Positions 25,874 through 30,702 of a stretch of 45,492 nt of DNA are shown one piece after another (within the stretch, counting starts at the first letter, position 1; every line of letters starts with the position of its first letter). The DNA lies in contig JAFLBG010000030.1 in assembly GCA_017303975.1 (NCBI GenBank), positions 1-45,492 of the forward strand, in the 5' to 3' direction. The stretch comes from Bacteroidota bacterium. Its GTDB lineage: Bacteria > Bacteroidota > Bacteroidia > JAFLBG01. A model generated the notes under the pieces. The model ran no database searches. It was not told the origin of the DNA and saw nothing but the letters and a program-made list of their open reading frames with translations. Made by a program: the position numbers and the translations under genes.

Positions 25874-28246
25874 ATGAGTGTAAGGTTTTTTTTATTTATT
25901 GTTATTTCTTTTACTTGCATTGCTTTTATTGGTAACGCTCAGCCTGTAACAGTTACAAACAACAGCGTAACCATTACCAATAGTAACGAACGTATAACCA
26001 TTAAAGGTAGTTATACCAACTTAACCACCGGATATGTTGTAAATACAGGTACTGTAGAGGTGTCCGGAAATATTTTAAATAACTCTGTAAACGAGTTTTC
26101 CGATTCTTCGGCAGGAAAGTTTGTGTTGAACGGAAAAAACTCCTTGGTTGGAGGCAGCCATGCGCTTAACTTTTACAAGTTAGAAGTAAAAGTTTCCGAT
26201 ACCGTATTTCTTAGTGCCAACATAAAAGTGTTGGATACCGTATTTTTTAGCCGAGGGTTTATTAAACTCAATAATCAAACTGTTTATTTAGATTCAACCG
26301 GGAATTTTTATAACGAACGCGATACCTCTAGAGTATTTGGTTTAACAGGAAAAGTACAACTCGTTAAGCAACTAAGCGCTCCCGATATTACAAACAATAT
26401 TTCCGGAGTAGGGTTGCACTTGCAATCGCAAAATAATCATGGGTATGTAGTAATTGAAAGAAGCCATTCTCAGCAATTGGCAGGAGATACAAGTGTGTTT
26501 CGCTTTTTTAAAATTGCACCTCAGTTTGTAGCGCCCATAGACAGTGTGCGAGTAAAATATTTTGCAGGAGAGCGTTATAAAAACGAAACGAATTACAAAA
26601 TATTTACGTCTCTCGTAACCGGAACCGGTGCGGGAAGTTGGGTAAATAGAAATGGATTGGTTGATAATGTGGACAAAGGCGTTGGTACAAAGTTGAATTC
26701 ATTTTTATTGGACAGTGTATTTTTTACCATTGCCAATCAAAGTTGTGCAGCTGCTCCCGATATCAATGTGCAAGGCTTTCCGGTACTTACTGTAACGACC
26801 AGTGTTTATACTATTACGTGCGCAAATGATACTGCAACGGTAACGGCTTATTCTTCAGCACCTGCTGCATCAATTCACTGGAAAAATGCGCAAGGTGTTC
26901 TTTTCTCAAATCCATTGGTAACAAATGTTCAGGGGGCTTATAATGTAGAAGTAATAAATGGAATAAATGGCTGCGCAAAAGATATGTGGTTGCAGGTTAC
27001 GCAAAATAAAATACCTCCTTTGCTAAACGCATTGCAGGATTCAGCTTTTCTTACTTGTTCTTTTCCTTCGCTGCAACTTTTGGGTAGTTCTATAACTCCG
27101 CAAACTATGTTAGATTGGTACGCGAATAATTCTGTTGTTTCTGCTAATCCTGCAACTGTAAACGCCACTGGTATCTATAATCTTGTAGCCACACGAGCCG
27201 ACAATGGCTGCACTGCCACCGATTCTATTCATGTGGGGTATAAGCCAATTATTTCATTTCAAACAACGAATGATACACTGGTTTGTAAGAATGCCTCCGT
27301 AATGCTTAATGCTGCTGCTGTTGGCGCGTTGGGTGCTGTGTCTTACAGTTGGAGCACAGGCGCGGCTTCTGCAAGTATAAGTGTAAATACTGCGAATACT
27401 GCGGCATACGTAGTTTCGGCAACTGCTTCGGGTGGATGTTTTGGTAGCGATACGGTTGTTGTTTCTATTCCTTCTGATATTGTTGATTCTGCTATTACTT
27501 TTCAATCATGCGATGGAACAAGAGTTGGAACTATTCAATTGTACGCCTCCGGAGGAATTCCTCCTTACCGGTATTCCATAGACAATGGTGTAAATTACCA
27601 GAGTGTAAATACGTTTGCCGATGTGGCTTATGGAACGTACAATGTTGTTATAAAAGATTCGTTGAGTTGTTTGAAAGCTCGAACTGCTGTAGTAAACGGC
27701 TACAGTTCTTTGCCGGTTCCGCAGTTTATTGCCAGTACACATAATTTTAGTTCAGACACTATTGTGTTGGTTGATTTGAGCGTTCCGCAAGCCGATTCGG
27801 TAAAATGGATTTTGCCCGCTGCTGCACAAATTATTGGTGGCACAATGTTTAATCCAATTGTGTATATGCCCGATACTGGTGTTTTTAATTTTGGAATGAT
27901 TGGTTATTTTGCCAATTGCACCTTAGATACCAACAAAACAATACGTTTTGTACGTACAGATACTACTTTTGCTACAAAAGATAATTACAATGGGATTAAG
28001 CGTGTAGAGCTTTATCCAAATCCATCGAACGGAATTTTTACGGTGGAGGTAGAGCTCTATAAAAAACAAAATGTAACCATTCAAGCCTGGGATGCTTATG
28101 CTGTAAGGCATTTGCAAACAAGCTATTCGGAAGTTGAAACTATCTCGCTGCCCGTAAATTTATCCTTGCTTCAAAACGGAACGTATATAATTCGTGTTAT
28201 TGGCGAATATGATACACGACATCTTTATTTTATTATTAGTAGATAA
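25874..28246 (+). CDS. Large exported protein with T9SS type A sorting domain
   Basis: 790 residues with a signal peptide (cut near GNAQ, residue 22). The N-terminal part (25-300) is rich in strand and low-complexity T/N/S segments. Repeated Ig-like modules with paired cysteines follow (for example VYTITCANDTATVTAYSS, FLTCSFPSLQLLG, DTLVCKNASVMLNAAA). The last ~80 residues are the type A sorting domain: VELYPNPSNGIFTVEVEL, then W(D)A, and GTYIIRVIG before LYFIISR. The protein should cross the outer membrane by T9SS. It is coupled to the collar-domain gene and may form one surface structure with it (inference). Confidence 0.85.
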   Translation: MSVRFFLFIVISFTCIAFIGNAQPVTVTNNSVTITNSNERITIKGSYTNLTTGYVVNTGTVEVSGNILNNSVNEFSDSSAGKFVLNGKNSLVGGSHALNFYKLEVKVSDTVFLSANIKVLDTVFFSRGFIKLNNQTVYLDSTGNFYNERDTSRVFGLTGKVQLVKQLSAPDITNNISGVGLHLQSQNNHGYVVIERSHSQQLAGDTSVFRFFKIAPQFVAPIDSVRVKYFAGERYKNETNYKIFTSLVTGTGAGSWVNRNGLVDNVDKGVGTKLNSFLLDSVFFTIANQSCAAAPDINVQGFPVLTVTTSVYTITCANDTATVTAYSSAPAASIHWKNAQGVLFSNPLVTNVQGAYNVEVINGINGCAKDMWLQVTQNKIPPLLNALQDSAFLTCSFPSLQLLGSSITPQTMLDWYANNSVVSANPATVNATGIYNLVATRADNGCTATDSIHVGYKPIISFQTTNDTLVCKNASVMLNAAAVGALGAVSYSWSTGAASASISVNTANTAAYVVSATASGGCFGSDTVVVSIPSDIVDSAITFQSCDGTRVGTIQLYASGGIPPYRYSIDNGVNYQSVNTFADVAYGTYNVVIKDSLSCLKARTAVVNGYSSLPVPQFIASTHNFSSDTIVLVDLSVPQADSVKWILPAAAQIIGGTMFNPIVYMPDTGVFNFGMIGYFANCTLDTNKTIRFVRTDTTFATKDNYNGIKRVELYPNPSNGIFTVEVELYKKQNVTIQAWDAYAVRHLQTSYSEVETISLPVNLSLLQNGTYIIRVIGEYDTRHLYFIISR

Positions 28247-28352
28247 CGTTTTGTGGGCATTGCGTTCGGGCCGATTTCGAAACACTAAACTGTCTGCCAG
28301 CACAGAACTTGAATAGAAGCACAAAGCACTTACTCAAATAAGCAAAGCTTAT

Positions 28353-28383
28353 AAAAAAAAGGCACTAAGAAAATCTTAGCGCC
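28353..28383 (-). terminator. Strong rho-independent terminator of the abiE/hsdR-remnant operon
   Basis: On the minus strand GGCGCTAAGA, a 3-base loop and TCTTAGTGCC form a 10-bp stem (one G-T pair), followed directly by eight T (28360-28353). The stop codon of the hsdR-like fragment lies inside the left arm. This is the clearest terminator in the window. Confidence 0.85.
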
Positions 28384-28468
28384 TACTGGGGTTGGCTGTC
28401 CTCCAAAATCCTTCTTGCCCCAACAACTCGGTAAATGCTTTTTCTAATTTTTCTTCGGTGAATTTCAT
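28376..28468 (-). pseudogene. Truncated 5' end of a type I restriction hsdR-like gene
   Basis: A 30-codon frame starts with ATG overlapping the AbiEii stop (ATGA) and begins MKFTEEKLEKAFTELLGQ, then EGF. From memory this is the conserved N-terminus of Bacteroidota type I restriction R subunits (normally ~1000 residues), which often stand directly after an AbiEi/AbiEii pair. Here similarity stops after about 21 residues; the frame continues as WRTANPSRR and ends inside a terminator hairpin. The simple reading is that a deletion removed nearly all of hsdR and joined its start to a downstream terminator. No hsdM or hsdS is present in the window. It might instead be a tiny independent gene. Confidence 0.6.
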
Positions 28469-29454
28469 TCCTTGGGTTCAATTTTTATTGTCCAAGAAAT
28501 TGTTTTCAATCTTTCTTGAATCATTTTTAATGTTTCCAAAACGCCTTCTTCTTTGGGTAATGCTCCATAGACCAAATTTTTAAAGTCTCCGTTATAAATT
28601 GTTTTCAACTCACTCCATATATTTTCTAAGTCTTTAAAGATAAGTGCTTCATTGGGATGATAATTCAGCCATTTATTATTGTTTCTAAAACTTGCTACAT
28701 CATCATTGGCTACTTTTAAAAGCATTTCATCAAAAGCAGTTGATTGAAAGAACTTTAAGAACTCATCTTGTTTAAGTAGTTGATGCAAATCGTAGGTATG
28801 TCTTATTTTTTTCTTTAAATCATCTATTGGATTCTCGCCATAAGAAAAACGAACTAAACTCATTACTTTTTCGCAAATGGTTCTTATTGTTTCTAATGCC
28901 AGCAAGTCAAAAGGAAGTAATCCATTTTCTTTAGCAATATCAGATTGCTTATTATCCAGCATCATTTGACCAACAAATGAAACTATGCTTTTTGTCGTGT
29001 ATGGTTCGTAATATCCCAACCAAGTAGATTCCAAAATGATAACATCTCTTACTTGTCCGTAATCGCCTTTAAATTCTTTGTTGTAGGAATGTGCCGTTTT
29101 TCGATTCATCCCCATTTTATGGGTAACGCCCTCGATAGGTACTTCGGGCAATACGGCTTCTACAACTGTGCTTACTGCTTTTAATTTTGATTTTAACTTG
29201 CTGTCTGTTTCTCCTTCTCGTCTCAATACTACCAAATCAATATCTTCCGAAAAGCGTTCTATCATATTGTAACATTTGGATAGTGCTGTTCCGCCTTTAA
29301 AAACTGTGTCTTTACCAATATCATTGTCGAAAATGGTATATAAAGCATAAGTAACCCAATAGTCTTTTTCCACATATATGGCAGGGATTTTCATTTGGTC
29401 AGCCGTAAACTGAACCGCTTGTCTGAATAAGGTTTTGTTTTCGTGCAACTTCAT
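28465..29454 (-). CDS. AbiEii/AbiGii-family nucleotidyltransferase toxin
   Basis: 329 residues from the ATG at 29454, which overlaps the upstream stop as ATGA; an ATG 12 bases upstream is possible but less neat. The nucleotidyltransferase core is visible: EKDYWV (29-34), VFKGGTALSKCY (51-62) and RFSEDIDLVV (67-76, metal-binding Asp71 and Asp73). The middle has the AbiEii-type segment LLPFDLLALETIRTICEK and a helical C-terminus. Family members (type IV toxin-antitoxin systems) inhibit growth, in studied cases by modifying tRNA, and protect populations from phage. Its partner is the gene upstream; both junctions in this operon are ATGA overlaps. Confidence 0.88.
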   Translation of the reverse strand: MKLHENKTLFRQAVQFTADQMKIPAIYVEKDYWVTYALYTIFDNDIGKDTVFKGGTALSKCYNMIERFSEDIDLVVLRREGETDSKLKSKLKAVSTVVEAVLPEVPIEGVTHKMGMNRKTAHSYNKEFKGDYGQVRDVIILESTWLGYYEPYTTKSIVSFVGQMMLDNKQSDIAKENGLLPFDLLALETIRTICEKVMSLVRFSYGENPIDDLKKKIRHTYDLHQLLKQDEFLKFFQSTAFDEMLLKVANDDVASFRNNNKWLNYHPNEALIFKDLENIWSELKTIYNGDFKNLVYGALPKEEGVLETLKMIQERLKTISWTIKIEPKE

Positions 29455-30176
29455 ATTATGTTCCATTTTTCGGTGGTGGATAATGCTTTCGCTGCACCTG
29501 TTAGTTTATACTTGGTAATTGGATTCAATGACTTGAAAAGCGGTTCTGTTGCTTTGCCTTGTTGCAATTGCTCTAACAACGCCCCTAACAATGCCCTTGT
29601 AGCTGGCGGATATTTCAAAGCCAACCGAACCAGTGTATTGATTTCTTGGTCTGTAAAGTTTTTGATTATGGCTAAGAAACGTTTGCAGGATGCTTCAATA
29701 CTGGCATCAGGTATTTTTTTGATGGAGCGAATAGCATCCAGTAACTGCAACAAAGGAATATTCTGTTTGGTGATGGTGTTTTTTTGTTTTACAAAAGCAA
29801 TGGTATAGCGTTCTCTTTTAAAGTTAGGACGAACCTGATTTTTGCCTATCTGTATGGTATTGCTTACCTGTGTGGTTAAGCCCAATTGGTTGTAAATGCT
29901 GTAACCTGTGAGATAACCGGTTGTTTTTCCGTTTTCTTCCAACAAATCTTTTACTACTTGTGCCTGATTGGGTTGAAGGCTGCCAAATGGGGTATTTTCT
30001 GGTTTGTAGTATTTTCCTTTGGATAGTTTGGCAATCTTGCCCGAAGCTACCATACGATTCAGGGCTTTTATTACCGCTTCTCTTTGGTTCACCTCGATAT
30101 CAAAGTCGGCATAGGTGAATACATAGCCCTTGGGCAGTCTATCTATGGTAAATGCTATGTATTCAGATGTTTTCAT
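29451..30176 (-). CDS. AbiEi-like antitoxin / DUF6088 family regulator
   Basis: 241 residues. The N-terminus (about 1-60) is a winged-helix-like module: GYVFTYADF, QREAVIKALNRMVASGKIAKLSKGKYYKP. A central part (YLTGYSIYNQLGLTTQVSNTIQI) and a helical C-terminus (FTDQEINTLVRLALKYPPATRALLGALLEQ) follow. It precedes the AbiEii-type toxin with an ATGA overlap, the usual antitoxin-toxin order. In studied AbiE systems the antitoxin also binds inverted repeats in its own promoter, and such a repeat lies directly upstream here. Family name from memory; an antitoxin role is inferred from context and fold. Confidence 0.82.
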   Translation of the reverse strand: MKTSEYIAFTIDRLPKGYVFTYADFDIEVNQREAVIKALNRMVASGKIAKLSKGKYYKPENTPFGSLQPNQAQVVKDLLEENGKTTGYLTGYSIYNQLGLTTQVSNTIQIGKNQVRPNFKRERYTIAFVKQKNTITKQNIPLLQLLDAIRSIKKIPDASIEASCKRFLAIIKNFTDQEINTLVRLALKYPPATRALLGALLEQLQQGKATEPLFKSLNPITKYKLTGAAKALSTTEKWNII

Positions 30177-30192: not shown

Positions 30193-30229
30193 CAAAGATA
30201 GTTTATTTGTCCAGTTTATTAGCAAAATA
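30193..30229 (-). promoter_or_regulatory. Promoter of the abiE pair
   Basis: On the minus strand TATCTTTG (30200-30193) is a perfect Bacteroidota -7 element (TAnnTTTG). It ends 16 bases before the ATG at 30176. A TTTTG (30227-30223) 22 bases upstream of it serves as a -33 element, one base longer than the usual 19-21 spacing. Confidence 0.7.
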
Positions 30230-30237
30230 ACTGGACA
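30208..30237. promoter_or_regulatory. Inverted repeat operator TGTCCAGTT-12-AACTGGACA
   Basis: Two perfect 9-base half-sites (30208-30216 and 30229-30237) with a 12-base spacer lie across the -33 element and the spacer of the abiE promoter. The half-site centres are 21 bases apart, two helical turns, as for a dimeric repressor. The AbiEi-like protein is the obvious candidate binder. Confidence 0.65.
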
Positions 30238-30253
30238 TTTTGAAATTCAATGA

Positions 30254-30296
30254 AGTATGGTTAACTTCGCAACGCAGTTGCGAAGTTAACCATACT
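30254..30296. repeat. Perfect 20-bp-arm inverted repeat (hairpin)
   Basis: The left arm 30254-30273 (agtatggttaacttcgcaac) pairs without mismatch with 30277-30296 across a 3-base loop. No T-run follows on either strand, so it is not a standard terminator. It lies between a broken lipoprotein gene and the abiE promoter. It could be a mobile-element remnant, a recombination or integration site, or a transcript-stabilising hairpin. Confidence 0.8.
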
Positions 30297-30324: not shown

Positions 30325-30702
30325 CTATACCTCAACTTCTTCTGTAATTTCTTCGCCAATGCCCATCATCATATTGTAATGACCAATATTTTCAGTGTGG
30401 CTAAATATGTTTTTAAAAACTTCTAAGTATTTCGTGATTGTTCCGTCTGGTGCTTCAATAAATAAATCGTCAGGTAATGTATGCGAACCACATTCTTTAT
30501 AGTTATAGATGATATCATTGGTCGTTGAATATTTCAATTTTCATTCGTAAAGTTTGTGGTTTAAGCTGTCTATAAGACTATTGAATTTTTTTGTCTCTGA
30601 TTTTCCTGTGTCGTTGTCTTGTCCGTTATAAGTACAACTTACGGTTAAAACTAAAAAAATAATTACCGTAAAAATTTTGTTGTCAAGTTTTAGTGTCGTC
30701 AT
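30325..30702 (-). pseudogene. Small lipoprotein gene interrupted by one in-frame TGA
   Basis: Reading the minus strand from the ATG at 30702 gives 53 codons: MTTLKLDNK, a hydrophobic stretch (IFTVIIFLVLTVSC) with a lipobox-like end at a cysteine, then a polar NGQDNDTGKSE segment to LNHKLYE. A TGA (30543-30541) follows, and the same frame stays open for another 71 codons (KLKYSTTNDIIYNYKECG to GEEITEEVEV) to TAG at 30327-30325. A continuous frame broken by one stop suggests a single ~125-residue lipoprotein gene with a nonsense mutation. Two small adjacent genes are the alternative; the second part would need a TTG start at 30537. Product not recognised. Confidence 0.55.

Follow-up and report, generated by a model that had tools for sequence, protein, structure and literature searches.

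An hsdR relic behind a stand-alone AbiE pair probably records its departure from a type I restriction operon

Type I restriction-modification (RM) operons are known to carry embedded accessory genes, among them PrrC/RloC-like ABC ATPases, RhuM, and Fic/Doc toxins (PMC3710099). Toxin-antitoxin cassettes and attC arrays without an integrase are likewise known, and the origin of new integron cassettes is among the outstanding questions of that field (PMC8618304). The locus described here lies in a 45,492-nucleotide contig of a Bacteroidota bacterium (JAFLBG010000030.1), which is called the window below. Its central gene pair resembles AbiE, a type IV toxin-antitoxin and abortive-infection system, in the order abiEi-abiEii, the overlap of the two genes, their membership in the DUF6088/AbiEi and AbiEii nucleotidyltransferase families, and an inverted-repeat operator; it differs in carrying a 63-nt relic of hsdR and in having RM-operon remnants on either side. 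The operons that we regard as its source resemble type I operons with embedded toxins, with hsdM, hsdS, and AAA_13 and RhuM modules placed before hsdR, but differ in that the start of hsdR is duplicated between modules. Finally, the AbiE unit of two relatives runs, like an integron gene cassette, into an attC with covarying arms; unlike such cassettes, the window unit has only half an attC, its genome has no IntI above cut-off, and the donor operon can still be recognized at both of its ends, an unusual trait in a cassette.

The window encodes an intact AbiE-pair nucleotidyltransferase toxin of 333 aa, AbiEii (28465-29466, minus strand; PF08843, 7e-24; PADLOC AbiEii, 1e-103), and, in an adjacent and overlapping gene, the 241-aa antitoxin/regulator AbiEi of the DUF6088 family (29451-30176, minus strand; PF19570, 1.5e-11; PADLOC AbiEi, 3e-60). 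Family searches identified both as intact members. The span given in the original prediction ended at 29454, which is the second methionine of AbiEii; the gene begins at 29466, or else at that methionine. The consensus of the Bacteroidota -7 promoter element is TAnnTTTG, and such an element, TATCTTTG, can be read upstream of abiEi (30193-30200, minus strand). An inverted repeat, TGTCCAG..CTGGACA (30208-30237, minus strand), is predicted to be the probable AbiEi operator and coincides with the upstream boundary at which AbiE loci commonly cease to be similar. On the other side, the pair is followed by an intrinsic terminator (28352-28384, minus strand), an 11-bp hairpin (28384-28360) and a T run with a folding energy of -15.6 kcal/mol (z -5.6). 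Because promoter element, operator, and terminator frame it, the pair is self-contained, and it is the sole working unit left at the locus. Its predicted role is that of an independent type IV module serving addiction or abortive infection, in which AbiEi would both repress and neutralize and AbiEii would be the nucleotidyltransferase toxin.

Overlapping the abiEii stop as ATGA is a 30-codon frame, MKFTEEKLEKAFTELLGQEGFWRTANPSRR followed by a stop codon (28376-28468, minus strand), that begins at the hsdR start codon. The original prediction had noted the overlap, had read the peptide as an HsdR N terminus cut short near 28400-28405, and had placed its end within the terminator, all of which our analysis bears out. 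Residues 1 to 21 are identical to the N termini of HsdR at six loci (L035, L056, L152, L153, L155, and L039); at the DNA level, resemblance to hsdR extends as far as 28406, near the expected junction; and the stop codon lies in the 3' half of the hairpin (28360-28384), with the T run after it. The hsdR stub thus comprises the first 63 nt of the gene (28406-28468, minus strand), and full-length hsdR stands in the same place at L035, L045, L070, L073, and others. Where the intact hsdR of L070 reads CCCCATCATTTGGGC, the window has a 15-nt non-hsdR tail, TGGAGGACAGCCAAC (28391-28405, minus strand). Measured against a 63-nt consensus built from 27 hsdR starts, the stub has one synonymous change, and in itself it shows no sign of decay; its substitution ratio (p 0.19) has no power to separate relaxed from constrained evolution. 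By itself the 30-residue peptide matched nothing in Pfam or NCBIfam because it is too short.

In other Bacteroidota, at many of the 80 loci surveyed below, a complete HsdR of ~1070 aa follows AbiEii at the same ATGA and begins with MKFTEEKLEKAFTELLGQEGF or close to it. The full HsdR of L045 (1071 aa) has HSDR_N from residue 3, SWI2_SNF2, and T1RH-like_C, and it also matches the solved EcoR124 HsdR. The window frame has the HsdR-homologous N terminus; it stops after 30 codons, and the nuclease and SWI2/SNF2 motor domains are absent. Judged by sequence, the frame is not an HsdR; it is what remains of the 5' end of a type I hsdR gene.

An operon of the order hsdM-hsdS-abiE-hsdR, expected at the outset in related genomes, was found intact at L045 and L055 (Aquiflexum), where hsdM, hsdS, an AAA ATPase gene, RhuM, abiEi, abiEii, and hsdR all run in one direction; abiEi-abiEii-hsdR with the same ATGA is intact at L035, L045, L055, L065, L070, and L073. 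The upstream side of the window pair also retains operon sequence, a C-terminal remnant of ~55 codons of an AAA_13/PDC-S06 protein (30325-30489, minus strand), an accessory gene of the type I RM operon whose full copy occupies 3858-6143 of L055, within the intact operon. The AAA_13 remnant likewise precedes abiEi at L028, L030, and L031, and L031 has the PDC-S06 C terminus. A near-perfect hairpin of 43 nt (30254-30296, minus strand; z -10.7), the arms of which stay complementary despite changes in L028 and L031, gave only chance matches in Rfam and is likely the terminator of the lost upstream gene. The open reading frame list shows no hsdM or hsdS around the window pair, the genome's other HSDR_N genes lying elsewhere, and our survey yielded no present-day operon in which AAA_13 immediately precedes this AbiE, hence no donor.

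Relatives were collected by scanning 84,980 genomes with an alignment of the window AbiEii and one 65% relative, which gave 80 loci, nearly all from Bacteroidota; none was found in viral_contigs or in phages. The same 63-nt stub, cut at the same base, follows a stand-alone AbiE at five other distinct loci from different orders, namely, in a Flavobacteriales metagenome-assembled genome (MAG) (L028/L029), Dyadobacter (L030), a Bacteroidia MAG (L031), Pedobacter (L032), and a Bacteroidetes MAG (L036). The sequences after the stub are related as well: the window tail is identical at 13 of 15 positions to that of L030 (CGCAGGACAGCCAAC) and related to those of L031, L032, L028, and L036 (the last two reading TGCAGAATAGTCAAC). 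Since the same cut and a related foreign tail recur at stand-alone loci elsewhere, the truncation is older than the window locus and travelled with AbiE; together with the AAA_13 remnant upstream, this argues that a pre-formed operon fragment moved horizontally. The original prediction of an RM locus that lost its effector while keeping its toxin-antitoxin pair therefore holds for the type I origin of the truncated hsdR and for AbiE as the part retained, but not for the place of the deletion, which did not occur at this locus. On the AbiEii tree, the same-stub rows require 2 changes versus 6.8 when shuffled, of which the starred branches force only one; L033, L038, and L040, near relatives next to the window on that tree, have no recognizable stub, so stub losses must be assumed.

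Other stand-alone AbiE loci are cut at other points (~36 nt in L170, 37 nt in L046, 48 nt in L034, and a longer piece in L037), and L071 has the 63-nt cut but an unrelated tail. On the Emticicia oligotrophica plasmid pEMTOL03, which has rep and parA, the gene after AbiE is an hsdR shortened to 108 aa (L187 13004-13330) that matches HSDR_N and is annotated "type I restriction endonuclease," with an internal hsdR piece after it. There hsdR is broken by an internal deletion, an independent case of AbiE outliving hsdR. Given the several cut points and this plasmid, hsdR has been lost behind a surviving AbiE several times. The survey also contained an AbiEii 64% identical to that of the window in the betaproteobacterium Pelistega suis (L106), which suggests transfer between phyla; a related AbiE pair immediately 5' of BREX genes on a plasmid of Runella sp. 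SP2 (L188); and, in genome G030 (L006 1501-1854), an AbiEii relative that stops after 117 codons next to a whole AbiEi.

We consider it very probable that the stub is what is left of the 5' end of hsdR, attached to an intact AbiE pair that escaped from a type I operon and then spread horizontally among Bacteroidota. We infer the following order of events. In the source operon, AbiE would have been an accessory module, the end of its toxin gene overlapping hsdR through ATGA and probably translationally coupled to it. A fragment consisting of the AAA_13 3' end, abiEi, abiEii, and the first 63 nt of hsdR would have been severed and fused to a cassette-type tail, and horizontal spread through Bacteroidota would have followed, with the fragment next to attC as an integron-type cassette in some hosts at least. 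The stub would then be a tag of the origin of stand-alone AbiE, making traffic between RM operons and free defense modules visible at the nucleotide level. The operon remnants on both sides of AbiE would equally be expected if a complete type I operon had decayed in place, with deletion of hsdM, hsdS, and the greater part of hsdR and with addiction preserving AbiE, and pEMTOL03, with its internally deleted hsdR behind AbiE, is an example of such decay; however, the cut point and related tail that the window shares with five other loci in different orders place the truncation before the window locus, and decay in place is improbable here. Less probable again is a working role for the stub, as a short gene or as a coupling leader needed by AbiE, for instance a coupled terminator-proximal peptide. 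Stub frames in intact operons do overlap the start codon of the next module (L045 7846 and 8134, L070 8523, and L088 10990), but three of the six distinct stand-alone copies have lost the start codon (AGG, ATA, or AAA in L030, L032, and L036), no gene follows the stub at these loci, and tail lengths differ. The 30-codon gene is accordingly not conserved intact in relatives, and with its start codon gone in three of them, the stub is debris and not a conserved gene; L030 also has an internal stop within AbiEii. A chance or low-complexity match to the HsdR N terminus, to which the failure of the short peptide alone to match any library might seem to point, is refuted by the 21/21 identity shared with six full HsdR proteins that occupy the same place in the operon and by the single synonymous difference from the consensus of 27 hsdR starts, and deserves practically no credence.

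Beyond the terminator, the left half of an attC-like site is absent and the right half (..GAAATCGGCCCGAACGCAATGCCCACAAAACGTTATC; 28246-28330, minus strand) remains, with 75.9% identity to the L036 attC along 83 nt. This half is up to 88% identical to attC-like copies in the same genome, which has several such sites, and its right end, GTTATC (28244-28250), overlaps the stop codon of a convergent gene for a T9SS-sorted protein (25874-28246). The stub tail continues directly into a complete 134-nt attC with paired R''/R' and L''/L' arms at L030 and L031; across nine copies, the 20 arm pairs are 96% paired versus 30-44% in slid controls, and 13 of the 20 have changed on both sides. At L031 and L071, AbiE lies within gene arrays separated by direct repeats. 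We conclude that the AbiE unit was an integron-type cassette at some stage, which may have been mobilized by attC, and that the window copy, having lost half of its attC, is probably fixed. An IntI-type integrase above cut-off was not found in the window's genome (best single match to TIGR02249, 110.9 bits versus a cut-off of 265), and the tyrosine integrase on its contig C6 appears to lack the IntI-specific patch. An attC adjoining the stub bears on how new integron cassettes form, the question raised in PMC8618304. Sites resembling attC also occur across the tyrosine-integrase region of contig C6 (L165 and L166), a possible cassette array.

Upstream of hsdR, between accessory modules, the start of the gene recurs as additional copies of 26-63 nt or more, mostly from the ATG, at 14 of 31 loci. 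This is not a population frequency, since AbiE served in part to select the loci; of the 13 selected by HsdR alone, 2 have copies. L045 has four with the genuine start counted in, L067 also has four, and L055, L057, L070, and L156 have three each. The control search took each 63-nt window of hsdR in turn and compared it with the 11 kb upstream at the 31 loci. Only scattered chance-level matches came from windows other than the first, which yielded 20 copies distributed over 14 loci (E values as low as 5e-24); with two exceptions, which align from base 2 or 3, these begin at base 1 of the ATG. The modules before the copies, in differing orders, are AbiE, RhuM, an AlbA/RecG-like fragment (HATPase_c_4), a RAYT-like gene, and a 23S rRNA IVP protein; the RAYT-like gene has no Pfam match, and we presume its identity from a motif. 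With hsdR itself counted as a copy, an ATGA overlap joins the copy to the gene before it in 20 of 36 cases, and several stubs end overlapping the start codon of the next module. A DNA search with the stub also led to L179, which has a stub, a transposase-like gene, and hsdR, with no AbiE seen. An upper limit of 63 nt on stub length was considered but abandoned, as the stub at L156 10041 continues to ~40 codons. A stub was most similar to the hsdR of its own locus in 10 of 21 cases (mean relative rank 0.22; the rows are not independent), so in-place duplication explains only part of the pattern, and import seems to occur too.

It is quite possible, and we advance it tentatively, that the first 26-63 (or more) nt of hsdR are a recurrent exchange point for accessory defense modules in Bacteroidota type I operons, each exchange leaving a copy of the hsdR start and regenerating full hsdR downstream, and that one module-plus-stub unit became an integron-type cassette. 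In our reading, modules would insert at the hsdR 5' end and be translated by coupling to the stub, and the full gene would be regenerated because its loss would cost restriction; candidate routes are homology-assisted illegitimate recombination, recombination between existing stubs, or some other process. If so, modules behave as cassettes with a gene-start junction, and the AbiE unit is a rare traceable record of cassette birth. The duplicated starts suggest how type I operons may gain accessory toxins without loss of restriction. A literature search, with most subscription journals outside its scope, found no description of hsdR-start copies or of an hsdR-tagged AbiE cassette. Three loci also have HsdR frames of 1281-1294 aa (L055 10999-14883, L052 5988, and L067 12713) with an in-frame insert of ~215 residues, which L052 and L067 appear to contain, judging by their length; in L055 the insert matches Y1_Tnp (IS200-like/RAYT-type transposase, 2.6e-6) within T1R_D3-like, and the reading frame stays open.
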